The translations under genes were made by a program, and so were the position numbers. Shown one piece after another: positions 1 through 17,671 of a stretch of DNA of 64,000 nucleotides; position 1 is the stretch's first letter, and each line of letters opens with the position of its first letter. Below the pieces are notes generated by a model. It was not told the origin of the DNA. It saw only the letters and a list, made by a program, of their open reading frames with translations, and searched no databases. Source of the stretch: Verrucomicrobiaceae bacterium E54 (GTDB lineage: Bacteria > Verrucomicrobiota > Verrucomicrobiia > Verrucomicrobiales > Akkermansiaceae); assembly GCA_022548915.1 (NCBI GenBank), contig JAKZES010000013.1, positions 1 through 64,000 of the forward strand, given 5' to 3'.

Positions 1-1
1 A

Positions 2-18: not shown

Positions 19-76
19 GCCACGTCCGCTTGCTCACCCCTTTCAACGGCACCCACCGACCTCCCGACTCACAGCG

Positions 77-1693: not shown

Positions 1694-1729
1694 CTTTCCA
1701 TTAAGGACTCCCGGCCGCCGATATTTCAA

Positions 1730-2980
1730 TCAAGCCGCCTTGGGCCTCTTCAGCGGCAGCACGATCAGTCCGGCGATCACGCAAAGAACGCCGCAGATCG
1801 TGAAGGCGAGCGGGAAGTTGCCCAGGTCGCCGAGCTTGCCGGCCAGCACGGGGCCGATCAGGCCGCCGATCGCATAGGCAAGGAACACCCAGCCGTAGTT
1901 CTGCCCGATGTGCTTTGCCCCGAAGGTCTCCGCCGTGATGGTCGGGAACAAGGCGAAGATGCCCCCGTAGTTGAAACCGATCAGCGCCGCTCCGATGAAC
2001 AGCAGGAAGGGCGTTCCGGCCATGAACTGGAAGCAGTAGACGATCAGCCCCTGCAGGATGGACATCAGGATGATCGAGCGCTTGCAGCCGAGCTTGTCGC
2101 CGATCATCCCCCAGATGATGCGGCCGAGGCCGTTGGCCAGCGCGTAGTACACCGCCGCCGCCGTGCCTGCCAGGGCGAGGGCCTTCTCGAGGTCATACCC
2201 GGACTCGACCAACGCCTCCTTCGGAAACTGCTTCATGATCCCGATGCTCATCAGGCCCGCCGCCGCACCGAAGGCAAAGGACAGCAGGATGGTGAAGTAC
2301 TGCGGAGTTCGTAGCATCGCGCCGCTTTCCAGCCCGGGGCCGTCGTCGACCGGTGCCGCCTTGGCCTTTGTCGCAACCGGCGGCGCCCAGCCCTCGGGCG
2401 GATAGAACATCCACAGGCTTCCGATGCCGATCACCAGGATGAAGGTGATGCCGTAGGCGATGAAGGTTCCTCCGATACCGATGGTGTCCAGCAGGTGCCC
2501 CCACTCGCCGGCAAGCTTGATCCACAGCATCGCGCCGAAGCCGAAGCCGGCCACCGCGAGGCCGGAGATGAGCCCCTTGCGGTGGGGATACCAGCGGACC
2601 CCGACGGCGATCGGCACGACATAGGAGAGACCGATGCCGGCACCGCCCATGATGCCGATGAAGATGAACAGGAGCGGGTAGCTCGTGCCTCCGAACAGTC
2701 CCGCCAGAATGTAGCCGAGCCCGAGCAGGGCCCCGCCCGCCATGCAGACGTTGCGCGGGCCGAACTTCGGCAGCAACCGACCGGCCAGCACCATCACGAT
2801 GGCAAAGGTGACCAGGCCCGCCGAGAACACGTTCTGGGTCTGGCTGACCGTCCATCCCACATCCTGAAGCGTCGGGGTAAAGGTCGACCAGGCGTAGATC
2901 GCGCCGAGGCAGTACTGGATCGCGATGGCCGCGATGACGATGTCGATGCGGGCGGCGGTGGGTGTTTCTTCGGTAGGCAT
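1730..2980 (-). CDS. MFS transporter, OFA (oxalate/formate antiporter-like) family
   Basis: Twelve-helix major facilitator permease of about 416 residues in the inner membrane. The N-terminus (AIQYCLGAIYAWSTFTPTLQ) and the loop segment VRWYPHRKGLISGLAVAGFG are typical of the OFA subfamily, which includes oxalate:formate and other small monocarboxylate transporters. The ATG at 2980 (MPTEETPTAARID) is preferred over the GTG at 3106 because it puts the first helix near the N-terminus and has a GGGGGTG purine run just upstream. The next gene, a sulfatase, begins 37 bp downstream, so the pair looks like one transcript. The substrate cannot be read from sequence. Confidence 0.87.
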   Translation of the reverse strand: MPTEETPTAARIDIVIAAIAIQYCLGAIYAWSTFTPTLQDVGWTVSQTQNVFSAGLVTFAIVMVLAGRLLPKFGPRNVCMAGGALLGLGYILAGLFGGTSYPLLFIFIGIMGGAGIGLSYVVPIAVGVRWYPHRKGLISGLAVAGFGFGAMLWIKLAGEWGHLLDTIGIGGTFIAYGITFILVIGIGSLWMFYPPEGWAPPVATKAKAAPVDDGPGLESGAMLRTPQYFTILLSFAFGAAAGLMSIGIMKQFPKEALVESGYDLEKALALAGTAAAVYYALANGLGRIIWGMIGDKLGCKRSIILMSILQGLIVYCFQFMAGTPFLLFIGAALIGFNYGGIFALFPTITAETFGAKHIGQNYGWVFLAYAIGGLIGPVLAGKLGDLGNFPLAFTICGVLCVIAGLIVLPLKRPKAA

Positions 2981-3127
2981 GGCTTTACACCCCCGTTGGC
3001 CCCAGGGGGCGCCGCGTTCATGCCGCCTGACCCGGTTCGTTAGAAGCCACGCAAAATCCGTGCGCAGGGAATCAGAAACCCGGCGGACTTCCGATCGGAC
3101 AATCACGTTCCGTTTGCCGGAAAGCCA

Positions 3128-3700
3128 CTAATCCCTACGTTTTCCCCCCTCGCGCAGGGTGGCGATGTCATCGGGATGGATGGCCCCATCCGGCAGCGGC
3201 CCGGTGTTCAGCAGCAGTTTGCAGTTCATCGAGCGGGCCTTCTTCAGCATGCCCATGACCTGATCCGGCGTCTTGTGCCGAGCCTCGTCGGCCTTCATGT
3301 AGCCCCGGCCCTGCGGCTGTTGGGTGTCGCAGATCTCGTTGTGCTTGTCCTTGTTGGCGGCCCATGCCCGGGCGACGAGGTCGGTGATGAAGTCGGTGTC
3401 GAATTTCTCCGGATCGAAGCGCCCGGTGAGCTTCTCGTAGTCTTTCACCGGGATCTTCTCACGGAACATCACCCACTCGTGGCGCCCGAGGATGGAGTAG
3501 AGCCCGTGGTGCATGAAGAGCCCGAACTCCGCCTGCCCGAACCAGGCCAATGCGGCGTCGATGGGCCTGCGATGCAAGGCGGTGGCAAAGTGGGCGAGAT
3601 GGGGTGGCACCTCCGCGCGACCGTTCCCAGCAAACAGGGGACCGGCAAGGGCGGTCGATGCCGCCGCCGTGGTCGTGGTGAGAAACTGGCGTCGTTGCAT
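3128..3700 (-). pseudogene. Internally deleted GH29 alpha-L-fucosidase
   Basis: About 190 residues where intact GH29 enzymes have roughly 450 or more. It starts with a Tat-like signal (MQRRQFLTTTTAAAS). It continues with a normal GH29 N-terminus (WFGQAEFGLFMHHGLYSILG, then a KFDTDFITDLV segment). It then jumps straight to a segment normally found near the domain end (AWAANKDKHNEICDT, then LLLNTGPLPDGAIHPDDIAT). The centre of the barrel is missing, including the H-H-D-G/S-F strand and the nucleophile Asp strand (W-F-D). The C-terminus also stops soon after TLREGGKR. The frame remains open across the junction near residue 107, so a short protein could still be made, but it cannot be a working fucosidase. 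Sixty-six bases separate it from the hsdR stop. Confidence 0.8.
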
Positions 3701-3766
3701 GGCGGCGATACGGCTGTCTTCCACCACCTCCTGTTAATCGACCGCCTCCTCCGACATCCACCCACC

Positions 3767-6706
3767 TCACGCCACCTCATCCCCCATCGTCAGGCGGAAG
3801 AGGGCGTCGGCGAGGGCTCGCTTGAAGTCCTTGTTGTTGGCGTAGAGCTTGTAGAGCTGGGTGTGGTCCTTCATCAGGCCGAGCATGGCCGTCTTGAGGG
3901 CGTCGTCGTGGGCGATGCGGATGGTCTGCTCGTTCTGCTTGCTGGACTTGGCGTTCTGGAAGCTCTCGTTGCCCCGGATCTTCTGCTGCAGCTCGTTCAT
4001 GGTCTTCCGCAGGCGGTCCTCGTCCTCCCAGGCGATGTTGCCGAACTGGTCGTTGAAGCTCCTGATGATGTTCGAGAGCAGGTCGAAATCGGGCTCCTGC
4101 CTCCCGCCGCCACCGCCGACAGGGACCGGCTCCAGCGTCTCATCGCCTTCGAGGATGATGTCGTTGGTGGCCTGCTTCTCGACCCGGTAGGAATCCATGT
4201 CGATTGCCTCCATGATGCCGGCGGCAAGGTCGGGATCCTCTGGTGAAGGGAGTTTGTGGACCAGGAAGCGGAGGAAGGTCGCCAGCTTCTCCCATTCCAG
4301 GTTCTTGAAGGGCAGGATGCCGCCGAGGAAATTGTAGGTCCGCACGAAGGCCTTGGCGTTGCCCTTGAACTTGATCTGTCCGTCTTCGTCGAGCTCCTCC
4401 TTGTAGCAGGCGGCACAGGCGTCGAGGATCACATCGAGGTCGTAGCGGGACGCGTCCTGGAGAAACTTCGAGACGAAGGTGTCCACCTCTTCCTGTCCGT
4501 AGACTTGGGCGGCATCGAGTTCGGCCTTGAGGTCGTGGAGCTTGTTGGGGTCGGTCTCTTCGCTGAGGATCGTCGTCTTGTAGTAGGGCTCGAAGGACTT
4601 GCGGATTGGTTCGGCGTCGTTGTGGAAGTCGAGAACGAAGGTGTCGCGTTTCACACCCGGGATGGTGCGATTGAGCCGTGACAGTGTCTGAACCGCCTGC
4701 ACGCCGGCCAGCTCCTTGTCCACATACATGGTGTGGAGCAGCGGCTGGTCGAAGCCGGTCTGGAACTTCTCGGCGACGATCAGGAAGCGGTATTCTTCCT
4801 TCTCAAACTCGTCGGGGATCTTGGCCCCGGCGAAGCCGTTCATGCTGTCCTCGGTGTATTTCTCGTCCTGGTATTTCTTCTCTCCAGTAAAGGCGACCAG
4901 GGCCTTGTAGGGGCTCCGTCGTTCGGCGAGGTAGGCGACGATGGCGAGCTTGTATTGGATCGCCCGCTCGATCCCGGAAGTCACGACCATCGCCTTGGCC
5001 TTGCCGTTGATCTTCCGCTTGGCGATCACCTCGTCGTGGAAGTGGTCGACCATGATCTCGGCCTTCATGCGGATGGCGTGCTCGTGGCTTTCCACGAACT
5101 TCTTCAGCTTCTTTCGGGCCTTGCGGGCATCAACCTCGGGGTCGTCCTCGACCTTCTTGAGCAGCTTGTAGTAGCTCGACCAGGTCGTGTAGTTCTGCAG
5201 CACGTCGAGGATGAAGCCCTCGTCGATGGCCTGCCGCATGGTGTAGGGGTGGAAGGGACCGAAGGTCCCGTCCGGCTGCTTCACGCCGAAGAGCTCGAGG
5301 GTCTTGTTCTTGGGCGTGGCGGTGAAGGCGAAGTAGCTGGCGTTATCGAGAAACTTGCGGCTTTCGATGATCTTGTTCAGTCGGTCTTCGTCGGTCTCGT
5401 AGAACTCTTCGTCGTCGTCCCGGAGGGTCTCGTTGAGCTTGGCGGCGGTCTGCCCGCCCTGGCTGGAGTGGGCCTCGTCGATGATGATCGCGAAGTTGTT
5501 GCCGGGCAGTGAGCGGATGTCATCGCAAACGAAGGGGAACTTCTGGATCGTGGTGATGATGATCTTCTTCCCGTTCTGGAGGGCCAACTTGAGCTGCTTG
5601 GAGCCCTGGGTGATGGCTTCCACGACGCCGGCGACGCGGGCGAACTGGGCGATGTTGTCGCGGAGCTGCTTGTCGAGGACCCGGCGGTCGGTGACGACGA
5701 TGATGGAGTCGAAGACCGGATCGGTGGCTACCTGGCCGCGTAGCTCGGTGAGCTGGTGGGCGAGCCAGGTGATCGAGTTCGACTTTCCGGAGCCGGCGGA
5801 GTGCTGGACGAGGTAGCGTTTCCCCGGGCCGTTGGTCGCGGCATCGGAAAGGAGCTTGGTCACCACGTCGAGCTGGTGGTAGCGGGGGAAGATCTGCTTC
5901 CGCTTCTTCCGCTTCGTCTTGGGGTCCTCCTCGGTGATGATCTGGGCGAACTTCTCGATGATGCGGCCGAAGACCTCCTTGGTGAGAATCTCCTTCCACA
6001 GGTAGTCGGTCTTGAGTCCGTCGGGATTCGGCGGGTTGCCGGCTCCGTCCTTCCAGCCCTTGTTGAAGGGGAGGAAGACCGACCGCTCGTCGGCGAGGGC
6101 GGTGCAGAAAGCCACCGTCTGGTCATCAACGGCGAAATGCACCAGGCAGACCCCGAACTTGAAGAGCGGCTCGGTGGTCGGGCGGTCCCGTTGATACTGG
6201 CGGATCGCGTCCTTGGTGGACTGCTTGGTGAGCGAGTTCTTCAGCTCGAAGGTGGCGATCGGGAGTCCGTTGAGGAAGACCACCATGTCGAGCGAGCGGG
6301 CCTGCTCGTCCTGGGAGTAGCGGAGCTGACGGGTGACCACCCACCGGTTGGCGGCGTGATTCTTCCCGGCCTGCTCGTTGTGGGCACTGGGGGTCGGGTA
6401 GTAGAGGCGGATCTTGGCCACGGCCTGATGCCCGAAGCCGCTGCGAAGCACGTCCACCACACCCCGCTTCCGGATCTCGGCAGAAAGGCGGGACAGGAAC
6501 TTGGTGCGTGATGCTTCCTCCTGCCCGATCCCGAGCTTCTTCACGATCTCGGGCTGGGTGGCCTCGAGAAATCCCATCAAGTGCGGCACGTCGAGGCACA
6601 GCGTGCGGTCGTAGTCGGCCGGGTCGCCCTTCGCGTAGCCGTTGGCGTCGAGCAGGTGAGACTCGATCAGGGCTTCGAGGGAGGCTTCGTTGAGGGAGGA
6701 GGGCAT
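3767..6706 (-). CDS. hsdR: Type I restriction endonuclease subunit R (HsdR)
   Basis: Motor/nuclease subunit of a type I restriction-modification complex, about 979 residues, which translocates and cleaves DNA lacking host methylation. The N-terminal PD-(D/E)xK nuclease is visible as SLDMVVFLNGLPIATFELKN (D about 140, E154, K156). The SF2 helicase follows with Walker A SAGSGKS (about 303-309), DEAH box IIIDEAHSSQGG (about 410-413) and motif VI-like QTLSRLNRT. The start at 6706 (MPSSLNEASLEALI) is preferred; the longer frame overlaps the upstream PIN-like gene. It is the last gene of the operon hsdM-hsdS-OLD-like-XRE/ImmA-PIN-hsdR, separated from hsdS by about 3.7 kb of other genes. No frameshift is seen. 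Confidence 0.96.
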   Translation of the reverse strand: MPSSLNEASLEALIESHLLDANGYAKGDPADYDRTLCLDVPHLMGFLEATQPEIVKKLGIGQEEASRTKFLSRLSAEIRKRGVVDVLRSGFGHQAVAKIRLYYPTPSAHNEQAGKNHAANRWVVTRQLRYSQDEQARSLDMVVFLNGLPIATFELKNSLTKQSTKDAIRQYQRDRPTTEPLFKFGVCLVHFAVDDQTVAFCTALADERSVFLPFNKGWKDGAGNPPNPDGLKTDYLWKEILTKEVFGRIIEKFAQIITEEDPKTKRKKRKQIFPRYHQLDVVTKLLSDAATNGPGKRYLVQHSAGSGKSNSITWLAHQLTELRGQVATDPVFDSIIVVTDRRVLDKQLRDNIAQFARVAGVVEAITQGSKQLKLALQNGKKIIITTIQKFPFVCDDIRSLPGNNFAIIIDEAHSSQGGQTAAKLNETLRDDDEEFYETDEDRLNKIIESRKFLDNASYFAFTATPKNKTLELFGVKQPDGTFGPFHPYTMRQAIDEGFILDVLQNYTTWSSYYKLLKKVEDDPEVDARKARKKLKKFVESHEHAIRMKAEIMVDHFHDEVIAKRKINGKAKAMVVTSGIERAIQYKLAIVAYLAERRSPYKALVAFTGEKKYQDEKYTEDSMNGFAGAKIPDEFEKEEYRFLIVAEKFQTGFDQPLLHTMYVDKELAGVQAVQTLSRLNRTIPGVKRDTFVLDFHNDAEPIRKSFEPYYKTTILSEETDPNKLHDLKAELDAAQVYGQEEVDTFVSKFLQDASRYDLDVILDACAACYKEELDEDGQIKFKGNAKAFVRTYNFLGGILPFKNLEWEKLATFLRFLVHKLPSPEDPDLAAGIMEAIDMDSYRVEKQATNDIILEGDETLEPVPVGGGGGRQEPDFDLLSNIIRSFNDQFGNIAWEDEDRLRKTMNELQQKIRGNESFQNAKSSKQNEQTIRIAHDDALKTAMLGLMKDHTQLYKLYANNKDFKRALADALFRLTMGDEVA

Positions 6707-6722
6707 GGGGCCGAGAATCGGA

Positions 6723-7217
6723 TTAGTCAGTCGCCAGCACGAACCGGGCACGCTCAGCCCGGAGCATCGAATACAGGTTCGTCCACTCGACGTCCATGGC
6801 TTGGCACACGTTCGGGATCTTCACCTTGCGGCTATTCTCCGGGACCGGAACTTCGTGGGTGACGACCTTGTGATCGTGGGCTTTTGCACAGGCAATCAAG
6901 AGCGGATCCGCCTTTGCGAAGAAGTTGGCCCGGTGTTCCTCCTTGTAGTCCTGGGCCATCACCCAAGCCGTAACCTCCCTCATCGCTACGGCGGTCGCGG
7001 CATCGGGTGCGAGAAACATCCCGGAGGCGTCCCTTACCGCCCACTCCGAAAGTTCATCCGTTTGACGACGCAGTTCGGTCGACACCGCCTCGATACTCAG
7101 GACGGAACCTTCTCCGATCTTGAGCACCAACCAGTCCCAAAAACCGGGGCACACCTCAAAAGAGTAGTGAGCGTTCTTGGCTTCGATCAGCGTGTTGGAA
7201 TCGAGAAGGTACGCCAT
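6723..7217 (-). CDS. DUF4411 family PIN-like protein
   Basis: A 164-residue protein resembling the DUF4411 group of PIN-like nucleases, often annotated as toxins of toxin-antitoxin pairs. The acidic start LLDSNTLIEAKN and the later FFAKADPLLIACAKAH carry the Asp residues expected of a PIN-fold metal site, and KVVTHE follows. The ATG at 7217 overlaps the upstream stop in a TGATG arrangement, which implies translational coupling; the GTG at 7220 is less likely. It directly follows an XRE-ImmA/IrrE gene, the usual partner for this family, and precedes hsdR by 16 bp. RNase activity is inferred from family only. Confidence 0.78.
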   Translation of the reverse strand: MAYLLDSNTLIEAKNAHYSFEVCPGFWDWLVLKIGEGSVLSIEAVSTELRRQTDELSEWAVRDASGMFLAPDAATAVAMREVTAWVMAQDYKEEHRANFFAKADPLLIACAKAHDHKVVTHEVPVPENSRKVKIPNVCQAMDVEWTNLYSMLRAERARFVLATD

Positions 7218-8371
7218 CACACCGAGAACTTGAGTTCGCTGGCAAACTTCCGAAACGTCTCTACCTTGCTGAAGCCCAACAGAGAAAGAGCGTCACGAAT
7301 CAACGTTCGCCCCTCGAGCGTGCTGGCCACAAGAGCCCGGGAAAACCGGGGACCTATTCGGCCCGGCTGGTTCCTGTAAAAGTCGCCACCGGAAGCCCTC
7401 GGAGAATCGGCATGCTGATCGAGCCGCTCCTCATACCAAGCCTTGAACTGGTTGCGATTGATCTGCCCGATGTCGTGGAGACGGCGGATAATCACAAGGT
7501 CGCTGACCCGATACCGTCTGCGGAGCCTTTCGACGAGTTGACCGGGCTCGGACTCGTCTTGCTGAACCAGTTCCCGGAGCTCTTGGATCGGGACCAAATA
7601 CTCGGCAGCAACCGCGTTGCAGTACGCCTCCACACGCTGATCGCGGGGGCTGTACGTGTTCTCCAAGTTGAAAATGGCGGACTGCCCCACCCACAGATGT
7701 ACGACTTCGTGGATCAAGGTGAAGATCTGGGCGGCCTTGAAGTCCGCAGCATTCACAAAGATCAGCGGAGCGTATTCATCGACCAAGGCAAACCCGCGGA
7801 ACTCCTCGGGGTCCAGTTTTCGCCGTGTCGCATTTCCGACAATACCGGCCCGCACGACCAGAATCCCGATGGCCTCGATCGCAGCACAAAGGTCGTTCAA
7901 GACGCCCTCGAGCGTTCGCTCGGTGCTTTCGGACGGGTGAAAACCGAGTTCGCGGCGAATCGCGGTGGCAACCCTCTCAGGGGACTGGCCGACATCCACG
8001 CTGTTAACAAAACCCAGCGGCTCCTCTTCCTCGGCGACAAGATAATCCCGGAACCAGTCCTGTCGCCTCAAGCTCTGATGGAGGACGTCAATCAAGTCGG
8101 GGCTCGGCCGTCCGACTGCTCTGCCACGGTGGGTCCGGAAGTCCGGAATCGGCAGCCGTTCTTCCGGCGGAGACTCCAGGAACAAATACCCGAAAGGCGT
8201 TCGGGTCGCCGCGGCGACCTTCTCGGCCTGCTTCCAGGTCAGCTCACCTTCCTCCTCCCAGCCAGCGACCTTCTCGACGCTCGTGCCAACCTTCTTCGCC
8301 AAGTCCTCGCGGCTGAGCTGGCCGCGGTCGCGGGCCCAGGCGAGCACTTCAGGTTGGAGAGTGATCTTCAT
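7217..8371 (-). CDS. XRE-type HTH plus ImmA/IrrE metallopeptidase
   Basis: A 384-residue two-domain regulator. Residues about 8-62 form a Cro/C1-type helix-turn-helix (LSREDLAKKVGTSVEKVAGW). The C-terminal half is an ImmA/IrrE (COG2856) zinc peptidase with H221-E-V-V-H225 in TLIHEVVHLWVG and a probable third ligand E248 in EAYCNAVAAEYLVP. Proteins of this build commonly act as antitoxin or repressor and can cleave a repressor partner. Here the gene is translationally coupled to the DUF4411 gene, which makes a toxin-antitoxin-like module likely. It lies inside a type I restriction operon between a DUF262 remnant and the PIN-like gene. Confidence 0.88.
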   Translation of the reverse strand: MKITLQPEVLAWARDRGQLSREDLAKKVGTSVEKVAGWEEEGELTWKQAEKVAAATRTPFGYLFLESPPEERLPIPDFRTHRGRAVGRPSPDLIDVLHQSLRRQDWFRDYLVAEEEEPLGFVNSVDVGQSPERVATAIRRELGFHPSESTERTLEGVLNDLCAAIEAIGILVVRAGIVGNATRRKLDPEEFRGFALVDEYAPLIFVNAADFKAAQIFTLIHEVVHLWVGQSAIFNLENTYSPRDQRVEAYCNAVAAEYLVPIQELRELVQQDESEPGQLVERLRRRYRVSDLVIIRRLHDIGQINRNQFKAWYEERLDQHADSPRASGGDFYRNQPGRIGPRFSRALVASTLEGRTLIRDALSLLGFSKVETFRKFASELKFSV

Positions 8372-8400
8372 TGGCGTCGAGGCAGATTATCGCAGGGGCT

Positions 8401-8505
8401 CTAGGATGTCGAACCGGACGGCATCTGGGTCAGGTCGCCGGCCTCGATCCAGCTCAGGAGCGTCTGGATCGGGTGCTGATTGACGGAGTAACGGGGCTGG
8501 GACAT
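8401..8505 (-). pseudogene. N-terminal remnant of a DUF262 (GmrSD-type) gene
   Basis: A 34-codon frame from ATG at 8505 to TAG at 8401. Its first 24 residues (MSQPRYSVNQHPIQTLLSWI and EAGD) match the very characteristic N-terminus of DUF262 proteins, where the family continues with an I-P-E-I-Q-R-P-F motif. Here homology stops at E-A-G-D and continues L-T-Q-M-P-S-G-S-T-S-stop. The divergence begins exactly at a TGGGTCAGGTC motif (8426-8436) seen at two other non-coding sites in this window. It lies in the 246-bp gap between the OLD-like and XRE-ImmA genes. The conserved DUF262 core is absent, so it is a relic. The match is from memory of the family, not from a search. Confidence 0.65.
8426..8436. 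repeat. TGGGTCAGGTC motif, copy 1
   Basis: An 11-mer present identically at three sites outside intact genes here (8426, 14053, 62268). This copy marks the point where the DUF262 remnant loses homology. It may be part of a REP-type element. Confidence 0.4.
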
Positions 8506-8550
8506 TGGGATCTTGATATGAGAAATGGCGAGCTTATGCTCACGACAAAT

Positions 8551-8574
8551 CTGAATGCTGGCCTGAATGCTGGC
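8551..8574. repeat. 12-bp tandem duplication
   Basis: Two exact adjacent copies of ctgaatgctggc in the gap upstream of the DUF262 remnant and just past the end of the OLD-like gene. No further copies follow. Confidence 0.7.
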
Positions 8575-8617
8575 TTGACCGGGTAGTAGGATTCCACCGG
8601 GGGCCGCAAGGCCCCCT

Positions 8618-10417
8618 TCATGCCTTCGCGGGGGAAAGTAGTTGGGCTATCAAATCCAGCACTTCCCGAATCTCCCCGTTGAAGTGCTCTCCCGAGCATT
8701 CGTCGATAAGAAGATGGAGTTCCCCTTTGCGGAGCAGCATCCGGGTGCCGCTCTTCGCGGCGAGGCGGCGGAAAAACTCTTCGGCGAAATCGCTCAGTTT
8801 GACGCCCGATGTCTGGGCCCGCCAGATCAGGCTCTTCTGGTTCGGTTCCGCTTCGAGGTAGGCGGAGAGATCCTCCTCGGCTCCGCCAAAGACCCGCTCC
8901 AGCAGCAGCTCCCGCTGAATCTCGTCGATCACCGGCCGGAAGCCCTCGAACAGTTCCTGATCGTCGAGGTGCCGCATCGCGTAGGCTGACAGCAATTCGG
9001 GGGTCACGAAGTAGTTCTCCGGCTCGTATCGCTTCCAGACGTGCTCGCGGAAGCCGCCTTCCTCGCCTTCGGTCGATCCGCGACGGGCGTCGCCATCCCT
9101 CAGCGCGAGGCCCCGCAGGTTCGGGACCATGTCGCGGAGCGCAAAGAAGTGCTTCCGGGCCGAAATCCCGTAGCCGCCTTCCACCCGTTCCAACTCCTGT
9201 TCGACCTCACGTTCAGCTTGCGGATAGTTGTCCTGGAGGTAGTAGGTGTTCAGCCGACTGCCTTGTTCCAGAACCTCTGCAACCGGATGATCGAGCTTGC
9301 GGGCGAAGCCCCGGAGCATGTCGATATCCGTGCTCCCTTCGACGTAGAGCACCGTCCCTGTCTGGCGAGCCCTGACGTAATGCTCGGCCCCGAAGTGCTT
9401 CAAGGAATTCCGGATCATCTCCGAGCCGCCGACCTGATCGGTCTGGCCGTCCAGAATCAGCGTCAGGTTGGTATCGATCGCCTCATTGAGCACCACCTCG
9501 GAATGGGTGACCATGACCACCTGCGACTCGTTTCGGTGCGCCACATCGCGTAGCAGCACATAGACTTGCCGCTGCCGAAGGATCTCCAGATGAGCATCCG
9601 GTTCATCAATCAGCAGGATGCTGCGCTTGTGGGAAAACAAGTAGGAGAGAATAAGCAGCATCTGCTGGAAGCCACGGCCTGCCATGCTGATATCCAGCGC
9701 CTCCTTGACCTCGGGCTGGCGGTAGAAAAGCTCGACCACGCCGCGCACTTCATCCTCCACCGGATTCATCAGCTCGGCCCCGAAAAGCCGCTTCATCAGG
9801 CCCGTGATCCTCCTCCAGTCGTCGGGAGTGTCGCGGGCGACGATCAAGCACAGGTTCCGCAGCACCTGGGCGGTCTGGCCCTGGCCGAGCAGGACGTTGA
9901 TCCGCCCGGGCTTGATCACCGGTTCCTCGGTCTCGATGCCGGACATGGAATAGAGGAGCTCGACGTTCAGCCGAGCCGAATACTGGATCAGGTCGAGATC
10001 TTCGGAACAATCCTCGCCCGGCTCGCAGTAGGCGAGCTCGTCCGACTGAGACTTGAACTTCATGGTCACCGGCCGGACCTTCCCTTTGTACTCCACGCCG
10101 ACGGTGATCGACATGATGATCGGCTGATTGCCCGTGCGGACGCGGGCGTCCTTCCAGAAGAACCGCGTCCGCGTGACCGGCACCGAGACGATGCTGAGCC
10201 GGTTCAGGGCGGTGGCGACCCGCTCGCTGGCCTTCGAGTCGCGGCGGCCGGAGTACCAGGTCTTGATCCCGAAGGACCAGAGGGCCAGTGCCTGGATCGC
10301 ACTGGTCTTGCCGCAGTTGTTCGGGCCGATGAGCACCGCCGGGTGCTCCAGCTCGATGCGCTGGCGTTCCCCGAAACGCTTGAAGTTCTCGATCTCAAGG
10401 TAGTGGAGCAGGCGCAT
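8618..10417 (-). CDS. OLD/PARIS-like ATPase with C-terminal TOPRIM-like domain
   Basis: A 599-residue putative defence nuclease. The N-terminal ABC/SMC-type ATPase (AAA_15/AAA_21) starts IENFKRFGE and has Walker A GPNNCGKTS (residues 31-39), a signature-like SMAGRGFQQM (about 244-253), Walker B SILLIDEPDAHLE (about 266-278) and switch histidine VMVTHSE (about 301-307). The C-terminal part has TOPRIM-type acidic motifs: YVEGSTDIDML (E360), LRDGDAR (DxD, 441-443) and RYEPENYFVTPELL. OLD nucleases and fused PARIS (AriA-AriB) proteins share this order, so both remain possible. It starts 14 bp after hsdS on the same strand and is almost certainly cotranscribed with it. Its targets and trigger are unknown. 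Confidence 0.82.
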   Translation of the reverse strand: MRLLHYLEIENFKRFGERQRIELEHPAVLIGPNNCGKTSAIQALALWSFGIKTWYSGRRDSKASERVATALNRLSIVSVPVTRTRFFWKDARVRTGNQPIIMSITVGVEYKGKVRPVTMKFKSQSDELAYCEPGEDCSEDLDLIQYSARLNVELLYSMSGIETEEPVIKPGRINVLLGQGQTAQVLRNLCLIVARDTPDDWRRITGLMKRLFGAELMNPVEDEVRGVVELFYRQPEVKEALDISMAGRGFQQMLLILSYLFSHKRSILLIDEPDAHLEILRQRQVYVLLRDVAHRNESQVVMVTHSEVVLNEAIDTNLTLILDGQTDQVGGSEMIRNSLKHFGAEHYVRARQTGTVLYVEGSTDIDMLRGFARKLDHPVAEVLEQGSRLNTYYLQDNYPQAEREVEQELERVEGGYGISARKHFFALRDMVPNLRGLALRDGDARRGSTEGEEGGFREHVWKRYEPENYFVTPELLSAYAMRHLDDQELFEGFRPVIDEIQRELLLERVFGGAEEDLSAYLEAEPNQKSLIWRAQTSGVKLSDFAEEFFRRLAAKSGTRMLLRKGELHLLIDECSGEHFNGEIREVLDLIAQLLSPAKA

Positions 10418-10431
10418 GGCGGCAGTCTGGT

Positions 10432-11703
10432 TCAGGTCGGGCGGTCCGTCACGTCGATCTTCCCCGTCACCGCCTCGGCGATGAGGGCGGTGCGGTATTC
10501 CTGCATCCGCTTGATCTGACGGCGGGCTCGGGTGATGGTGGTGTCGATTTTCTCCACCTCCTCATTGCATTCCCCAACGATCATCAATTGCAGCTTCTTC
10601 GGTGGCATCGGGATCTTCAGGTGCTTCAGGTCGTGGCAGGTAAGGGCCCCCTTGGTGCTCCCTGAATCATCGCTCATTGCCCTGAGTTGGGCATACAAAC
10701 CACGAAGTGCGAGGTGGAGATACCTCGGCACGAGTCGTGGATTGGTGATTGTGATGAAGGCGAGATGCTGATTAATCGTTGCCTCGAAGTCGAGAAGGGC
10801 TGCTGTGCCACGGGTCTTACCTTGTCCGGTGATCGCAACAAGCACACTATGCCGGGGCACGATCGGAAGATGGCATTCTCGTAAGGCTGTCGGCGTTACA
10901 AATTGGTCAGACTCAGTAATCGTTCCTTGATTGACTGATGCACTGTTAAGCCACGGGTAGGCTCCCTCCGTCCAATAGCTCGGCTGTGACCTTGCAGGGG
11001 TCGACCCATTGCCGACTCTGGCGAGGTGACCTATTCTCCATGCTTCCCACCCCACCGGAATCTCTGGCAGCCAGGGGATGCCGGAGGGTTGGAGTTTGGG
11101 GTTGGGGTCGAGGCCGCGGGTGACGGCCCGGTGGATGAGGGCCCGCTTGCGTTCTTCCAAGAGAGCAATCTCCCGCTCCTTCACCCGCAGGTAGCGGTCG
11201 ATCGCTTCGAGCTTCCCATCCAAATACGCCACGATGGCGTCTTGTTCGGGGCGAGGTGGCACGGGTAGCGGAATCCGGAGAAATTCCTCCGGATACAACC
11301 GTAGTCGGGATTGTCGGATGCCGGTTGAGCGACGCATGTATTCCGCGGCATATTCAGGTGTTCGGAGAAGGAGGTCCAGGAATCGTGGGTTGTAGGTCTG
11401 CGGATCGTGGAGGCGGTAGACACCATAGGAGGGACTGACTATTCCATGGTAGTTGGAGACGCCGAGGGCTGACATCCACGCCCACATCGTGTTGATCACC
11501 AAATCCCCCGGCCAGCAGAGCTTTGAACCCTCATACGACTCGGCTTCAAACATGGTGATATTCTTCTCCGACCGCGGTGTGACGCCAGTTACGTGAGAGA
11601 CGGAAAGCAGCTCTTCTTCACCAGTAGCCGATCGAACGTCGATCTCGCGAAGGAGAAACTTCGCTCGCTTCGTTGGCCATCCATTCTGTGTAGTTGCCGC
11701 CAT
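10432..11703 (-). CDS. hsdS: Type I restriction-modification specificity subunit (HsdS)
   Basis: DNA-recognition subunit of about 423 residues with two target-recognition domains that each read half of a bipartite site. TRD1 spans roughly residues 15-150 (RAKFLLREIDVRS to IPLPVPPRPEQ). The central conserved helix is QDAIVAYLDGKLEAIDRYL with KREIALLEERK-type continuation. TRD2 begins near VGWEAWRIGHLARVGNGSTP, and the distal conserved helix is near the C-terminus (EEVEKIDTTITRARRQIKRM). The ATG at 11703 is used because it follows the hsdM stop by one base (TAA-G-ATG); the upstream part of the open frame lies inside hsdM. The target sequence cannot be predicted. Confidence 0.94.
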   Translation of the reverse strand: MAATTQNGWPTKRAKFLLREIDVRSATGEEELLSVSHVTGVTPRSEKNITMFEAESYEGSKLCWPGDLVINTMWAWMSALGVSNYHGIVSPSYGVYRLHDPQTYNPRFLDLLLRTPEYAAEYMRRSTGIRQSRLRLYPEEFLRIPLPVPPRPEQDAIVAYLDGKLEAIDRYLRVKEREIALLEERKRALIHRAVTRGLDPNPKLQPSGIPWLPEIPVGWEAWRIGHLARVGNGSTPARSQPSYWTEGAYPWLNSASVNQGTITESDQFVTPTALRECHLPIVPRHSVLVAITGQGKTRGTAALLDFEATINQHLAFITITNPRLVPRYLHLALRGLYAQLRAMSDDSGSTKGALTCHDLKHLKIPMPPKKLQLMIVGECNEEVEKIDTTITRARRQIKRMQEYRTALIAEAVTGKIDVTDRPT

Positions 11704-11704
11704 C

Positions 11705-14002
11705 TTACGCCAGCACCTCCTCAAGCAGTTGTTCGGCCTCGGCTTCGAGGGCCCGGAGGTCCTCGGCAATCTCCTCCAGCGGGCGGAGCGGCTGGTATTC
11801 GTAGAAGTGGCGGGTGAAGGGGATCTCGTAGCCGATCTGGGTCTTCTCGCCATCGATCCAGGCGTCCCCGACGTGGGGCTTCACCTCCCGCTGGAAGTAA
11901 GCCTCGATGCCGCCGGGCTCGGTGAGTGGCACCTGCTCCGTGTCCCGCAGCTCGGAGTCGGACTCATACTGGAGGAAGCCGCCCTTGTCCTTGTAGGTGC
12001 CATAGAGGGCCTCGCGTTCGAGGCTTTCCTCGGTGTGATACTTGGCGAGGCGCTTCTTGATGACCGGAGCGGCATCCGGGTTGCGGAAGGTGACGGCGGC
12101 GAGGAGGGCCTTCTTCTCGACGGTGGCGAGCTTCCGGTCGAGGTCCTTGAGGGCGGCCTTCAGGTCCTTCTCGAAGGCGGCGAAGTCATCCCACTGCCGG
12201 TCGGCCCCGAGGAACTCCTGCAGCTCCTGGGCGAGGGCGTGGAGGTCGGCATCGGCCTGCCAGGTCTTGGGGTCGAGGAACTGCTTGCGGGCCTTGGTCT
12301 TGAGCTTGGGCTCGTGGGCGTCGGCCATCTTCTCGAGGCGGGGCTTCAGCTCCTTGAACCGGGCGGGGTCGAGGAGGGCGTTGCCGTGCTTGTCCCAGGC
12401 CCGCCGGCGGAGGTCGTCGGGGCCGGTGCGGAAGCGCAGTGGATCGATGGCCTCGTCGCTGAAGCGGACGGAGAGCCGGAGTGGGCGTTCCACGACGATC
12501 TTCCAGTAGCCGAAGTCGGCGTTGTCGAAGATCTTCGACTTCACCGGGTTCTCCTCAGTGGCTTCCCGCTCCTCGAAGGCCATGAAGGCGTCCATGACCT
12601 GCTCGAGGTGCTCGTCCCGCAGCTCGCAGTTCTTCTTGCCGAGATTTTTGCGGAGCTTGGAGAAGGCCGCGGTGGCGTCGATGAGCTGGACCTTGCCCCG
12701 GCGGTGGGCCGGCTTGCGGTTCGAGACGACCCAGAGGTAGGTGGCGATGCCGGTGTTGTAGAAGAGGTTGAGCGGGAGGGCGACGATGGCCTCAAGGTAG
12801 TCGCTTTCGATCAGGTGGCGGCGGAAGTTCGACTCGCCCTGGCCGGCGTCGCCGGTGAAGAGGGCGGAGCCGTTGTGGACCGAGACAATGCGGGAGCCGA
12901 GCGGCGTGTCGTGCTTCATCTTGTCCACCATGGTGGCCAGGAACATGAGCTGGCCGTCGGAGGAGCGGGTGGTGAAGTTGAGATCGTCGCCGTCCTCGGT
13001 GGTGACGCGGAAGCGTGGGTCGACCATGTCGTCCTTCGAGCCGCCGCAGAGCTTGTCGAGGTCGTTCTTCCAGGACTTTCCGTAGGGCGGATTGGAAAGC
13101 ATGAAGTCGAAGCGGGTCCGCGGGAAGCGGTCGGCACTGAGGGTGGAGCCGTAGCCGATGTTGTCGGTGGGGCGGCTCTTGATGAGCATGTCCGACTGGC
13201 AGATGGCGTAGGTCTCGGGGTTGATCTCCTGGCCGTAGAGGTGGATCTGGACCTTCTTCTGCTGCTCGTCGGCGAGGTGGAGCAGCCATTCCTCGCTCTC
13301 GGTGAGCATGCCGCCGGTGCCGCAGGCAGGGTCGTAGACGAGGTAGGGGGCCGACTCGATCTGGTCGGCAATGGGGCGGAAGATCAGCCGCGACATGAGG
13401 CGGATGATTTCCCGCGGGGTGAAGTGCTCGCCGGCCTCCTCGTTGTTCTCCTCGTTGAACTTGCGGATCAGCTCCTCGAAGACGTAGCCCATGCCGAGAT
13501 TGCTGAGACCCGGCAGCTCGGTGCCGTCGGGCCGGGTGAAGGGCTCCGGGGAGAGGTTGATGTCCCGGGAGAGGAATTTCTCGACCAGGATGTAGAGGAC
13601 GTCGGCTTCCTCGAGTGTGTCAAGCTGGTTGTAGAGTTTGAACTTGGAGATGATCTCCTGGACGTTCTTCGAGAAGCCGTTGAGGTAGGCCTCGAAGTCG
13701 TCGCGGAGGTTGGTGGGCGACTTGAGCAGGCCGCGGAGGGTGAACTTGGAGGTGTTGTAGAAGGGGTAGCCGGAGGCGTCCTGCAGCGGGGCGTCCTGCT
13801 CCTCGATGCCCTCCTTGTCACAGAAGGCCTTCATTTCGAGGACGGCGTCCTTGGTGGGCTCCAGGAGGGCGTCAAGCCGCCGGAGGACGGTCATGGGGAG
13901 GATGACGTCACGGTATTTGCCGCGGGCGTAGACGTCGCGGAGGACGTCGTCGGCGATGCCCCAGATGAAGGAGACGATCTGGTTGTGGGTGGAGTGGTCC
14001 AT
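11705..14002 (-). CDS. hsdM: Type I restriction-modification methyltransferase (HsdM)
   Basis: N6-adenine methyltransferase of 765 residues, the modification subunit of the complex. It has the HsdM N-terminal helical domain (FIWGIADDVLRDVYARGKYR), SAM-binding motif I DPACGTGG (about residues 224-231) and catalytic motif IV SNPPYGKSW (NPPY about 304-307). The protein is longer than classical HsdM of about 500-550 residues because of a C-terminal extension rich in charged helices, a form common in many bacteria. It is the first gene of the defence operon; the 123 bp upstream are the likely promoter region and contain a TGGGTCAGGTC motif. The start MDHSTHNQIVSF is well supported. Confidence 0.96.
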   Translation of the reverse strand: MDHSTHNQIVSFIWGIADDVLRDVYARGKYRDVILPMTVLRRLDALLEPTKDAVLEMKAFCDKEGIEEQDAPLQDASGYPFYNTSKFTLRGLLKSPTNLRDDFEAYLNGFSKNVQEIISKFKLYNQLDTLEEADVLYILVEKFLSRDINLSPEPFTRPDGTELPGLSNLGMGYVFEELIRKFNEENNEEAGEHFTPREIIRLMSRLIFRPIADQIESAPYLVYDPACGTGGMLTESEEWLLHLADEQQKKVQIHLYGQEINPETYAICQSDMLIKSRPTDNIGYGSTLSADRFPRTRFDFMLSNPPYGKSWKNDLDKLCGGSKDDMVDPRFRVTTEDGDDLNFTTRSSDGQLMFLATMVDKMKHDTPLGSRIVSVHNGSALFTGDAGQGESNFRRHLIESDYLEAIVALPLNLFYNTGIATYLWVVSNRKPAHRRGKVQLIDATAAFSKLRKNLGKKNCELRDEHLEQVMDAFMAFEEREATEENPVKSKIFDNADFGYWKIVVERPLRLSVRFSDEAIDPLRFRTGPDDLRRRAWDKHGNALLDPARFKELKPRLEKMADAHEPKLKTKARKQFLDPKTWQADADLHALAQELQEFLGADRQWDDFAAFEKDLKAALKDLDRKLATVEKKALLAAVTFRNPDAAPVIKKRLAKYHTEESLEREALYGTYKDKGGFLQYESDSELRDTEQVPLTEPGGIEAYFQREVKPHVGDAWIDGEKTQIGYEIPFTRHFYEYQPLRPLEEIAEDLRALEAEAEQLLEEVLA

Positions 14003-14052
14003 GGTGGGAGAATCGGGCCAGGAAAGGCGGCGAGCCGACCTTTCCCGGAGGC

Positions 14053-14063
14053 TGGGTCAGGTC
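14053..14063. repeat. TGGGTCAGGTC motif, copy 2
   Basis: Second identical copy of the 11-mer, about 50 bp upstream of the hsdM start and therefore within the presumed promoter region of the defence operon. Confidence 0.4.
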
Positions 14064-14125
14064 TAACGGTGTGGCCGTCCGGGGACAAGGCTGGATGGCG
14101 GGGTGGGACAAAGGCGGGGCGGACC

Positions 14126-14938
14126 TCACTCCCCCGCCGCGCGGCGTGCAAGCCGGGCACGCTCGTCGAAGGCCGATGCCGTTCCAGCCTGCCCCATCGC
14201 CCGCGCGGCGTCGGCCAACCCCTCGAGGTCGTCCGCCACCTTGCCCGGCCGCGCGAGGTCGCGGTCGATCGCCAGGGCGCTTTCGAAAGCCGCTTGCGCC
14301 GCGACGGCATCGCCGGTGGCCAATGCCGCCCGGCCGCCCAGCCGGTGGGAATCCGCTGTCTCGGCGCGTTCGCCGGCGCGGCGGTTGATGCCCGCCGCCC
14401 GCCGGGCCACGGACAAGGCCCCGGCGGCATCGCCTTCCTCGAGACGGAGGCGTGCCTCCAGGTTGTCGAAGCGCCCCCGCATGCCGCGTGGCGGGCCGAG
14501 CGCGCGACCACGCTCCAACTCACGCCACGCGCTGCCACGACGTCCGGCATCCAGTTCGAGATAGGCCCGCATCCATGCCGCCTCGGCCCTCAACTCGTTG
14601 AGTTCCCCATCGATCTCTCCGGGGGAAAGTGTCGCCACGTAGCGGTCGACCGCATCGAGACAGTCCGACGCGTCGGACCTCGCCCCGGAGGCATTGCGGA
14701 CGACGGCGATGTTGACCAGGGAGCGCACGATCCCGACCGGATCGTCGATCGAACGGTAGCGCGAGAGGGCCTCGCCATACGCCAGGGTCGCTTCCTCGAT
14801 CCGGCCTTCGGCGAAGGCATCGTGGCCGTCGTCGGCCCGCTCGCGCGCCTCGCGCACCACCGGCGGAACGGCATTTCCCGGACCTGCGCAACCGGCAGCC
14901 AGCAGCACCAGCATCATCGTCATCCAGCGCTCAATCAT
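14126..14938 (-). CDS. TPR-like lipoprotein of the MCE operon
   Basis: A 270-residue predicted lipoprotein. The N-terminus MIERWMTMMLVLLAAGCAG is a lipoprotein signal with lipobox LAAGC, so the mature protein would be anchored through that Cys. The rest is Ala/Glu/Arg-rich and reads as tetratricopeptide-like helical pairs, for example AFAEGRIEEATLAYGEALSR and AQAAFESALAIDRDLARPGK. It is the last gene of the MCE transport operon and overlaps the preceding gene by 8 bp. Its position is where classical mla operons carry the lipid shuttle MlaC or a lipoprotein, but it does not resemble MlaC. A scaffolding or docking role is inference. Confidence 0.75.
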   Translation of the reverse strand: MIERWMTMMLVLLAAGCAGPGNAVPPVVREARERADDGHDAFAEGRIEEATLAYGEALSRYRSIDDPVGIVRSLVNIAVVRNASGARSDASDCLDAVDRYVATLSPGEIDGELNELRAEAAWMRAYLELDAGRRGSAWRELERGRALGPPRGMRGRFDNLEARLRLEEGDAAGALSVARRAAGINRRAGERAETADSHRLGGRAALATGDAVAAQAAFESALAIDRDLARPGKVADDLEGLADAARAMGQAGTASAFDERARLARRAAGE

Positions 14939-15941
14939 CGCTCGAGGTCCTCAGGGTTTTGCCATCGTCCTTCGACACGCCGCCCCGGATCGGCCACATG
15001 TCGCGCACCGCACTCATCACATCGTCCGCCTTGTCGACCGTCCGCGAGCTCTTGCGGACCATCTCGGGCACTTCGGGACCGGCCACGTCGACCGCCTCGC
15101 GAAGACCCCCGACCACGCCGTCGGCCTCATCGATCAGCCCGCCGGCCTTGGCCAGGGTTTCATCCAGCCGGCCCGAGGCCGAGTCGAGCTTGGTCAGAAT
15201 GGAGTCGAGGTGCTCGCTCATCGCCCGCGTGGCATCCTCGAACTGGTCGATGCCCTTCATCATGTCGTTGTCGGGTGCCCGCAGTTCCGCCACCAGCGAT
15301 TCGATCTCCGCCAGGGCCGCGCTGAGCCGGGCGAAGCCCTGCTGAAGGTCGCCGTCCTCGCGACGCAGGTCCACGACCAACGCATGCGACTCGTCGATGA
15401 CGCGATCCACCCGGTCCACCGTCAGCGGCAGCTTCTCCGCCACGCCTCCGAGTCCCACCAGGATCGGCTCGAACTCCTCCTTCAATTCCTCGACCATCGC
15501 CCCGATCGTCGGCTCGGCCTCGATCTGGATCTCCGCGCCTTCCGCTGCGGGCGGAGCTCCGGCACTGCCGGCCGTCAGCTCGATGAAACGGTCGCCAATC
15601 AGGTTCTCCCCGCGAACCTCTGCCCGCGAGTCGGTTTTCACGTAGTGAACGTACTCGTCGAAAACCTTCACACTCACGGTCACCTCGCCCGGACCGACCA
15701 GCTCGATCCCGTCCACCTTGCCGATCCGGAATCCACTCAGCCGCACGGCCATTCCCGTCTGCAAGCCCTCGCTGGTCTCCGCGGTCATCCGGTAGTGCTT
15801 CGCCCCGCGGAACCACTCCTGCCTCCAGATTCCGAAGCCGACCGCTCCTAACAGAACGAGCAGGATGACGCCGAGAAAGAATCCGGAGCGCAGTTCGACA
15901 AGGTGGAACCTCGGATCGGTGTTTTTCAGGAAGCGAGCCAT
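14931..15941 (-). CDS. MlaD-family MCE domain protein
   Basis: A 336-residue lipid-transport subunit. A single transmembrane segment (about 20-38, FFLGVILLVLLGAVGFGIW) is followed by one MCE domain (about 48-125, with GLQTGMAVRLSGFRIGKVDG and GENLIGDRFIEL). A long helical C-terminal tail follows, of the sort that builds periplasmic tunnels or needles. The family carries phospholipid between membranes with MlaE/MlaF-type partners. The start at 15941 has a strong GGAGGAG ribosome site and places the helix near the N-terminus; the open frame extends further upstream only because it overlaps the ATPase-like gene. It overlaps the upstream gene by 16 bp. Confidence 0.9.
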   Translation of the reverse strand: MARFLKNTDPRFHLVELRSGFFLGVILLVLLGAVGFGIWRQEWFRGAKHYRMTAETSEGLQTGMAVRLSGFRIGKVDGIELVGPGEVTVSVKVFDEYVHYVKTDSRAEVRGENLIGDRFIELTAGSAGAPPAAEGAEIQIEAEPTIGAMVEELKEEFEPILVGLGGVAEKLPLTVDRVDRVIDESHALVVDLRREDGDLQQGFARLSAALAEIESLVAELRAPDNDMMKGIDQFEDATRAMSEHLDSILTKLDSASGRLDETLAKAGGLIDEADGVVGGLREAVDVAGPEVPEMVRKSSRTVDKADDVMSAVRDMWPIRGGVSKDDGKTLRTSSDD

Positions 15942-16630
15942 GATTTCTCCTCCAGTTGGATGCAGTTGACGGGCGACCACGCCCTGAGTCCGAATGAATT
16001 CTCCACCGGACGCGTTGAATGCCTGAGGACGAGCATCGCGCTGCCCTCGTGCTGGCGGCCGAGCCAGTCGACCAGGGCCGCCACCCGGCGCGTCCGACCC
16101 TCGTCGAGGCGGTCGAAGATCCGGTCGCAGACCAGCAACCGGAATCCCGCGAGGTGGCAGCGAACCAGCGCGCAAACGATCCGCTCGAGGGCACTCAGCC
16201 GGTCCGGCACCTGGGGCATCAGGCCCACGGTCCGCTGCTCTTCGATGCCTGCTTGGGCGAATGCCTCGATGATGCGTTTCTCCACCTCCGCAGTGGACTC
16301 CGGCACCGGACCGAGCCGGGCCCGGCGGGGCAGCAGCAGGTTCTCCCAAACCCTCAGGTTGGCGATCAGCCCCCCTTCCGCCGAGGCGTAGCCCAATGCC
16401 TCGAGTCGTCCCAACAAGACCCTTTCCCTGCAACGCACGAGACTCCCGCCCGCCAGCAGCACGTCGTCTTCAGCAAGCCCCTCCAGCCCGGAAATCCGCT
16501 CCAGCAGTTCATCCAGGACCGGATTGGATCCCGACGAGAGGATCGCGGCGGCCCCGGCTTCGATCCCGAAGTCCAGTGCAACGGAGGACTCTCCTTCCGC
16601 AAGTTTCACCTCAAGGACCGGCTGATTCAT
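15926..16630 (-). CDS. Degenerate MlaF-like ABC ATPase subunit
   Basis: A 234-residue protein in the operon position of the MlaF ATPase, between the MlaE permease and the MCE subunit. The overall ABC layout is recognisable. The Q-loop neighbourhood LGYASAEGGLIANLRVWENL resembles that of MlaF, LSALERIVCALVR stands where the LSGGxxQR signature should be, FRLLVCDRIFDRLD replaces Walker B, and a switch His lies in LVLRHS. The P-loop region reads AAAILSSGSNPVLDELL with no GxxGxGKS lysine, and the Walker B catalytic Glu is Arg (D169-R170). It is therefore likely unable to hydrolyse ATP unless it pairs with another ATPase. The ATG at 16630 overlaps the MlaE stop (ATGA). Confidence 0.72.
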   Translation of the reverse strand: MNQPVLEVKLAEGESSVALDFGIEAGAAAILSSGSNPVLDELLERISGLEGLAEDDVLLAGGSLVRCRERVLLGRLEALGYASAEGGLIANLRVWENLLLPRRARLGPVPESTAEVEKRIIEAFAQAGIEEQRTVGLMPQVPDRLSALERIVCALVRCHLAGFRLLVCDRIFDRLDEGRTRRVAALVDWLGRQHEGSAMLVLRHSTRPVENSFGLRAWSPVNCIQLEEKSWLAS

Positions 16631-17406: not shown

Positions 17407-17671
17407 TGCATGGATCAGCCTGCCACCCGGAAACCCCGAAAACGAGCCGCACCTTGCCGGACGCGGGGATATGCCCCGATTTTCGCAGGATGCGCGGCGC
17501 GATCCACCTTCGACGCGGGCCAGCGGTCCCGGCATCACCCCATGACCGATCTGGAGATCGAGAGAGTGGCCACTACGCGGCCGATCACATCACCGACCGT
17601 CCACCCCGCGCCGTCCCACGAACGTGCGATGGCGTTGCTTGCTCCTTGACGTGATCGGCAATCTCGCGGAC

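Follow-up and report, generated by a model that had tools for sequence, protein, structure and literature searches.

A type I restriction operon of Verrucomicrobiaceae bacterium E54 probably carries separately acquired cargo modules between hsdS and hsdR

Genes embedded between hsdS and hsdR in type I restriction-modification operons are already in print, in the form of PrrC, DarTG2, TgvAB, and Rlo. PrrC, the guard of the type IC system EcoprrI, is an anticodon nuclease that is activated when EcoprrI is inhibited (review PMC12707154). The RRDM island of enteropathogenic Escherichia coli (EPEC) encodes RptR, HsdM, HsdS, DarTG2, HsdR, and an M48 peptidase, and its authors describe the site as a potential recombination hotspot (PMC12255303). 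In Vibrio cholerae, TgvAB in the VPI-2 type I cluster still protects when HsdR is inactivated, and RloF is mentioned in the same report (PMC11411939); rloA/rloB lie within the Campylobacter jejuni M1 type I locus (PMC2928727). Here, we describe a related operon in the first 64,000 nucleotides of contig JAKZES010000013.1 of Verrucomicrobiaceae bacterium E54 (assembly GCA_022548915.1), a stretch that we call the window. Its type I genes enclose an OLD-like gene and an XRE-ImmA/DUF4411 pair resembling a toxin-antitoxin system. We consider it likely that the hsdS-hsdR junction of this operon is a cargo slot holding two separately acquired, largely autonomous modules and the scar of a third. The locus appears to be a further instance of an established habit, not one new six-gene machine. 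What seems undescribed is that XRE-ImmA/DUF4411 has been placed repeatedly in type I loci and once in a type III-like one; the open-access literature that we searched yielded no description of this pair in restriction operons.

The operon occupies positions 3767 to 14002, with six genes on the minus strand in the order hsdM, hsdS, ATPase-TOPRIM, XRE-ImmA, DUF4411, and hsdR:

11705 to 14002, minus strand: hsdM, type I DNA methyltransferase subunit, 765 amino acids (aa) (Pfam HsdM_N and N6_Mtase; PADLOC MTase_I, E 4e-264)
about 10432 to 11703, minus strand: hsdS, specificity subunit (Methylase_S; PADLOC Specificity_I; junction with hsdM)
8618 to 10417, minus strand: OLD-like protein, ABC ATPase and TOPRIM-like part, 599 aa (AAA_21/AAA_15; fold match 6p74; conserved residues)
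8372 to 8617, no strand: 246-bp gap separating two cargo modules (junction of the OLD-like and XRE-ImmA genes)
8401 to 8520, minus strand: probable relic, N terminus of a DUF262 (GmrSD-type) gene (tblastn, best E 1e-3)
7217 to 8371, minus strand: XRE-ImmA, helix-turn-helix (HTH) and Peptidase_M78, likely antitoxin/regulator, 384 aa (Pfam, PADLOC RmrA, invariant residues)
6723 to 7217, minus strand: DUF4411, PIN-like, likely RNase toxin, 164 aa, overlapping the XRE-ImmA gene (PF14367, E 9e-49)
3767 to 6706, minus strand: hsdR, type I restriction motor/nuclease subunit (HSDR_N, SWI2_SNF2, ResIII)
3092 to 14113, no strand: block present here and missing in one piece from congener G397 (collinear flanks)

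The start of hsdS is likely at 11703, 1 bp past the hsdM stop; 14 bp separate hsdS from the OLD-like gene and 246 bp separate the latter from the XRE-ImmA gene, which overlaps DUF4411, and the hsdR ATG, at 6706, lies 16 bp downstream of DUF4411. These junctions bear out the original prediction of six genes on one strand with gaps of 1 to 16 bp or overlaps save for a single 246-bp gap, and domain searches agreed with the families it had named and supported its view of the inserts as defense-like and toxin-antitoxin-like.

The RRDM island, like the window, has a toxin-antitoxin pair between hsdS and hsdR (PMC12255303). The window differs in its toxin-antitoxin family, its additional OLD-like gene, its DUF262-like scar, and its upstream neighbor, a tetratricopeptide repeat (TPR) gene (no search was made for RptR itself). 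TgvAB consists of GmrSD-type defense genes in a type I operon (PMC11411939), and the relic in the window is likewise DUF262-like; however, TgvAB is an intact two-gene system, whereas the window keeps just a short N-terminal stretch. Like EcoprrI with its PrrC, the window places a predicted toxin gene inside a type I operon, but its inserts are an OLD-like gene and a pair of PIN type, and any tie of these to HsdR is hypothetical.

Searching 387 genomes of the phylum with the window HsdR gave positives in 63, its own genome included, and 66 further loci were examined (L numbers denote loci and G numbers genomes). This sample was picked by similarity to the window HsdR and is not random for type I systems; outside it are G076:C61 and G311:C41, where the contig starts at hsdR, and L019, L136, L138, L139, L140, and L146, which were already in other sets. 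An upstream hsdS was present on the contig in 55 of the 66, the other 11 having no detected upstream hsdS or hsdM. The spacing between hsdS and hsdR was at least 669 bp in 44 of the 55 and at most 150 bp in 11: insertion at this junction is common rather than a chance event. In a set to which the window, L019, and further loci with DUF4411 also belong, a simple rule on length yielded 102 inserted open reading frames (ORFs) of 140 aa or more, of which single calls may be wrong. They included Peptidase_M78 (11), SLFN_AlbA_2 (7), AAA_21 (5), GmrSD_N (4), DUF4411 (4), YhcG (3), reverse transcriptase (3), RhuM (2), RloB (2), and others; DarT with a macro-domain protein (L190) and AbiL-like genes (L217 and L220) are further tenants. 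With the junction filled in most loci of this type I family, it is a practical place to seek unknown defense genes. Some insertions have unusual contents. In L213 (9210-10973), the only tenant of the junction is a 587-aa SMC_N-type ATPase that matches no PADLOC model at 1e-8 and so stays unclassified, and the long insertions in L157 (4543-8912, five ORFs) and L170 (2184-11093, up to ten ORFs of at least 100 aa) mostly lack recurrent families.

The second module, XRE-ImmA with DUF4411, resembles a predicted class in which XRE-ImmA proteins accompany PIN toxins (PMC2701414, PMC10440598). Both RosmerTA/ImmA-zone (PMC10440598) and the COG2856-Xre/PIN operons (PMC2701414) have, like the window, an XRE-ImmA gene beside a predicted PIN toxin gene, and both occur on plasmids and phages. 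The window XRE-ImmA protein matched Peptidase_M78 (E 3e-12) and PADLOC RmrA (E 1.8e-15), while its HTH_3 match was under the Pfam cut-off. H221, E222, H225, and E248 (HExxH plus E248) were invariant in 18 chosen sequences, as expected for a zinc metalloprotease, and together with the RmrA and M78 matches these are the marks of a RosmerTA antitoxin; the protein is likely an antitoxin/regulator, judging from these features. DUF4411 has been listed earlier as a VapC-type or PIN domain (PMC8790059, PMC13273310). Four acidic residues (D6, E48, D104, and E122) were invariant in 23 chosen sequences, and a structural model (mean predicted local distance difference test score [pLDDT] 95.4) had VapC and FitB PIN toxins as its top structural matches (E 3e-4 to 6e-4). 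Against 6ifc_A, the model gave Z 12.8 and a root mean square deviation of 2.9 over 122 aligned residues. A VapC-like PIN fold is thus predicted for DUF4411, and the protein is likely an RNase toxin. In contrast to RosmerTA, DUF4411 matched no PADLOC model; RmrT toxins vary from system to system (PMC10440598), and the toxin role of DUF4411 is a predicted one.

The pair was adjacent in 60 of 60 loci besides the window: 20 of 20 in the phylum, 10 of 10 on plasmids, and 30 of 30 in a viral collection. DUF4411 occurred in 22 of the 387 genomes, including that of the window; the 20 phylum loci exclude G383, with a 46-aa fragment, and G320, below the cut-off. All 20 had an XRE-ImmA match directly upstream of DUF4411, although some copies are disrupted or truncated at the end of a contig. 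In eight, the pair lay in a type I locus (L136, L138, L139, L140, L146, L151, L154, and L155), although in L136, L154, and L155 only the R gene was visible next to it. In L145 (7281-12105), it sits between a methylase-like ORF below the Pfam cut-off and a type III-like res gene, and the embedding habit may therefore extend past type I. The pair is restriction linked in 9 of the 20 phylum loci, or 10 of 21 with the window; L149, near a C5 methylase, was not counted, and several other loci are too close to contig ends to be judged.

Copies of the pair also occur apart from type I genes. DUF4411 was present in 48 plasmid records, of which ten were opened and their annotated 9-kb flanks inspected in gene tables that are incomplete. 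One, from Acetobacter vaccinii, has hsd genes, in the order hsdM, hsdS, ImmA, DUF4411, Abi, and hsdR. Nine have none, including a Leptospira record in which a lone DNA methyltransferase gene adjoins the pair. In the viral collection, hsd genes were detected by profile search in 4 of 30 loci (L232, L233, L234, and L240) and not in the other 26. A phage collection gave two unannotated DUF4411 records of about 30% identity. The existence of hsd-free plasmid and viral copies indicates that type I restriction is not required for the upkeep of the pair. However, the hsd profiles were built from the type I subclass of the window and may miss other restriction classes, so "free" copies are possibly overcounted.

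Where the pair is embedded, its neighbors change. The order hsdS, exchangeable module, XRE-ImmA, DUF4411, hsdR was found three times, with an OLD-like gene in the window, Septu in L138 (hsdM, hsdS, PtuA, PtuB, XRE-ImmA, DUF4411, hsdR), and DarTG in the viral contig L240 (hsdM, x, hsdS, DarT, DarG, XRE-ImmA, DUF4411, hsdR). No module separates hsdS from the pair in L139 and L146. In a maximum-likelihood tree of 48 XRE-ImmA proteins, well-supported branches forced at least eight changes between restriction-linked and free locations. The tree omits L137 and L142, which are truncated or broken, and 13 of the 30 viral loci, picked without a preset rule; 4 of its 48 rows are unlabeled, and L149 and L231 are labeled free despite a DNA methylase gene near each. 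With at least eight changes of location, the pair offers naturally occurring copies, both free and embedded, with which to ask whether embedding alters toxin-antitoxin function. Two arrangements are worth recording. In L240 (5043-8495), DarT-DarG and XRE-ImmA/DUF4411 stand in a row, with hsdS and hsdR on either side. In L177 (4592-6277), just upstream of hsdR, an XRE-ImmA-like protein has another partner in place of DUF4411, one with weak PIN resemblance (Pfam E 0.03-0.1), a pairing that possibly reflects toxin swapping.

The first module is the single ATPase-TOPRIM gene. Pfam recognized the ATPase (AAA_21/AAA_15) and did not name a TOPRIM domain, but TOPRIM-like residues are conserved. Among 32 chosen sequences, the window's own among them, the ABC ATPase residues of the Walker A, signature, and Walker B motifs (G31, G36, K37, T38, G247, G249, D271, and E272) and H305 were present in all 32, as were the TOPRIM-type residues E360, D364, D441, E465, and E467; D443 was present in 24 and K564 in 31. 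From motif order, with no superposition, the TOPRIM-type residues would be equivalent to the metal-site residues of Thermus scotoductus (Ts) OLD (PMC7049728). The best Protein Data Bank (PDB) match of an AlphaFold2 model (mean pLDDT 86; predicted template modeling [TM] score, pTM, 0.71) was the Ts OLD nuclease, 6p74 (E 7e-14), with a TM score of just 0.38-0.43, followed by PtuA and GajA. The list from a second structural search, with residues 1-349 and hence silent on the TOPRIM half, was taken up by the heads of SMC, Rad50, and PtuA, with OLD absent. By its residues and best fold match, the protein is classed as OLD-like. As in the class 1 OLD proteins Ts OLD and P2 Old (PMC7049728, PMC10568477), an ABC ATPase and TOPRIM share one chain with conserved metal-site-type residues, and no UvrD-like helicase is among the domain matches of the operon. 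Class 1 OLD genes are described as single isolated genes (PMC7049728, PMC10568477), whereas this one lies inside an hsd operon.

The label "OLD/PARIS-like" of the original prediction therefore holds in its OLD part, on the best fold match and residues. PARIS finds no support, as there is no separate DUF4276/AriB gene among the operon genes and an OLD nuclease gave the best fold match. The fused PADLOC AriAB model gave a weak partial match (E 5e-14, best stretch residues 263-476), and the ATPase models NsnB (4e-22) and AriA (4e-21) were stronger. Gabija (class 2 OLD) was rejected; a UvrD-like helicase GajB is lacking among the operon genes, where the neighbors are hsdS and XRE-ImmA. It is the lack of DUF4276 and UvrD-type matches in the operon that leaves both assignments unsupported.

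The OLD-like gene, too, lives mostly apart from hsd genes. It occurred in 11 of the 387 genomes at E ≤ 1e-20, counting its own, and a scan of named genomes provided the best 80 of at least 414 relatives, giving 94 examined loci (14 + 80). Its position between hsdS and hsdR recurs in L041, L045, and L046; L019 has the gene within a rearranged hsd locus, L058 has it next to hsdR, and L067 and L030 have it next to hsdS. The 42 close loci comprise 39 named ones at roughly 50% identity or above together with L019, L020, and the window; 7 of the 42, including the window, are hsd linked, and 35 show no hsd genes by profile search, some of them on short contigs. L051, with an hsdM-like match to the first profiles and not the second, was counted as not linked. 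No plasmid match was found at 1e-30. Two of these loci have further features in the slot. Between the OLD-like gene and hsdR in L045 (11814-13135) are an XRE-ImmA-like fragment, detected by the first profile only, and a Fic-like ORF whose motif was spotted by eye. In L019 (11677-12045), an XRE-ImmA-like N terminus continues in frame into an hsdS C terminus, and a near-identical second XRE-ImmA start is found at 13990; this fusion reads as a recombination scar in the slot of another genome.

The 246-bp gap between the modules appears to hold the trace of a third. Translated in the minus-strand frame 8401-8520, it matched four plasmid records by tblastn (E up to 10), all four annotated DUF262; the best match had E 1e-3 and 54% identity over 28 residues, and two of the four had E 1 or 9. 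A Pfam search with this frame gave no match. The gene relic that the original prediction had placed in the gap is therefore plausible, and it is plausibly the start of a DUF262/GmrSD-type gene, a reading of the short match that we adopt because all records belong to one family and DUF262/GmrSD tenants occupy the same slot elsewhere. The gap contains no promoter-like site on the coding strand in a scan with the sigma-70 consensus only, and a single weak terminator-like site on that strand (8543-8528); the region has 3 such sites versus 8.3 in shuffles. A GC hairpin at the stop of the OLD-like gene was no more stable than shuffles (z −0.31).

Comparison with congener G397 showed that the whole locus is present or absent as one piece. 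In L291 (G397:C93:45000-54000), the flanks of the block are adjacent, as at an empty site, and the 11 kb between them, comprising the whole operon, its cargo, and a shortened fucosidase-like ORF, are missing. L291 883-4277 aligns with window 17502-14114 (75%), and L291 4264-7224 aligns with window 3091-79 (80%). Besides the genome of the window, only G397 has both flanking genes as close matches among the 18 genomes of the genus searched. A target-site duplication was sought at the block borders, and nothing convincing was found. The comparison alone does not distinguish gain from loss; the mobility of such operons favors gain.

That all six genes form one regulated, layered defense unit, as the original prediction proposed, is in our estimate highly improbable. 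Tight same-strand packing and the gain or loss of the entire block relative to G397 would suit such a unit, but the exact set was not found in 94 OLD-type, 66 hsdR, 20 DUF4411, and 30 viral loci. The proposed search did find recurrence, but of each module on its own, with the pair inside type I loci and the ATPase-TOPRIM gene at the hsdS-hsdR junction, and never of the six-gene order; none of the 94 OLD loci has DUF4411 in the DNA examined around it. Furthermore, the two modules are separated by a probable relic, the 246-bp gap, and a weak terminator-like site. Since the exact order is not found, the modules are mostly apart, and the neighbors of the pair swap among genomes (Septu and DarTG), independent cargo is the better description. 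It draws on direct observations, namely the identities and order of the genes, the conservation of catalytic-type residues, the recurrence of the modules apart from each other, the replacement of tenants between genomes, and the presence or absence of the block. Several findings nonetheless weigh against autonomous modules. Short junctions and a gap without a sigma-70-like promoter are compatible with a single shared transcript, so coupling of the modules is possible. The pair is recurrently just upstream of the R gene (the window, L136, L138, L139, L146, L154, L155, and L240), which could reflect selection for coupling. Finally, the restriction label is clustered on the tree, with 8 changes versus a shuffle mean of 13.8 and none of 500 shuffles as low; moves are therefore not free, and location is partly inherited, although far from a single origin. 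The tree itself rests partly on long branches, above all L177, whose placements are unsure.

Such coupling could take the form of a PrrC-like guard, in which phage anti-restriction would block or remove HsdR/HsdS, XRE-ImmA restraint would fail, and the PIN toxin would kill or stall the cell. Restriction is known to be guarded by PrrC in the case of EcoprrI (PMC12707154), an ImmA-type protease could by inference act as a sensor (PMC2701414), and the pair lies just upstream of hsdR genes from at least two type I subclasses and adjoins a type III-like res gene. Nevertheless, the guard model seems unlikely, given that the pair is accompanied by no hsd genes in nine of the ten plasmid records opened and in 26 of the 30 viral loci and that in L140 it lies between hsdM and hsdS. 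We are equally doubtful of a broader version, in which the pair would be a portable guard recruited repeatedly beside R genes of several type I subclasses and a type III-like system, with an exchangeable OLD, Septu, or DarTG layer stacked in front. It is very unlikely, in turn, that the pair and other tenants are selfish addiction modules that stabilize the operon and add nothing to phage defense. The plasmid copies of the pair, several of them close to relaxase genes or to other toxin-antitoxin genes, together with the turnover of tenants and the scar, would fit this explanation, but many other tenants match defense models, which suggests selection for defense at the slot.

In our preferred reading of the slot as a site for independent cargo, the activities of the operon proteins are those expected from their families. 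The restriction complex would cut unmodified phage DNA, and the OLD-like protein, which as a one-gene system would constitute module 1, would attack DNA on an infection cue. In module 2, DUF4411, probably an RNase, would be restrained by XRE-ImmA, which would also repress their operon; infection or the loss of XRE-ImmA would free the PIN toxin and lead to translation arrest. The probable scar between the modules would mark an earlier DUF262/GmrSD tenant. Read-through transcription and horizontal transfer may be common to the modules, but neither would need the other in order to act. We favor independence because each module lives apart elsewhere and because embedded TgvAB protects with HsdR inactivated (PMC11411939).

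The type I genes themselves encode the expected domains, with an N6-adenine methylase domain in HsdM, HsdS, and a nuclease N-terminal domain and SNF2-type motor in HsdR. HsdM also contains an NPPY stretch and HsdR an FELK stretch, in keeping with these assignments. Pfam Methylase_S covers only the second half of HsdS, and the PADLOC Specificity_I match is near full length. The NCBIfam TIGR00348 match of HsdR has E 1e-65, yet it falls under the curated cut-off. No RNA families reached gathering scores in window positions 1-20000. Beside hsdR, a 199-aa ORF (window 3128-3727) matches alpha-L-fucosidase in two stretches and falls well short of the 345 positions of the model; it is probably an internally deleted remnant, and it lies within the block that G397 is without.

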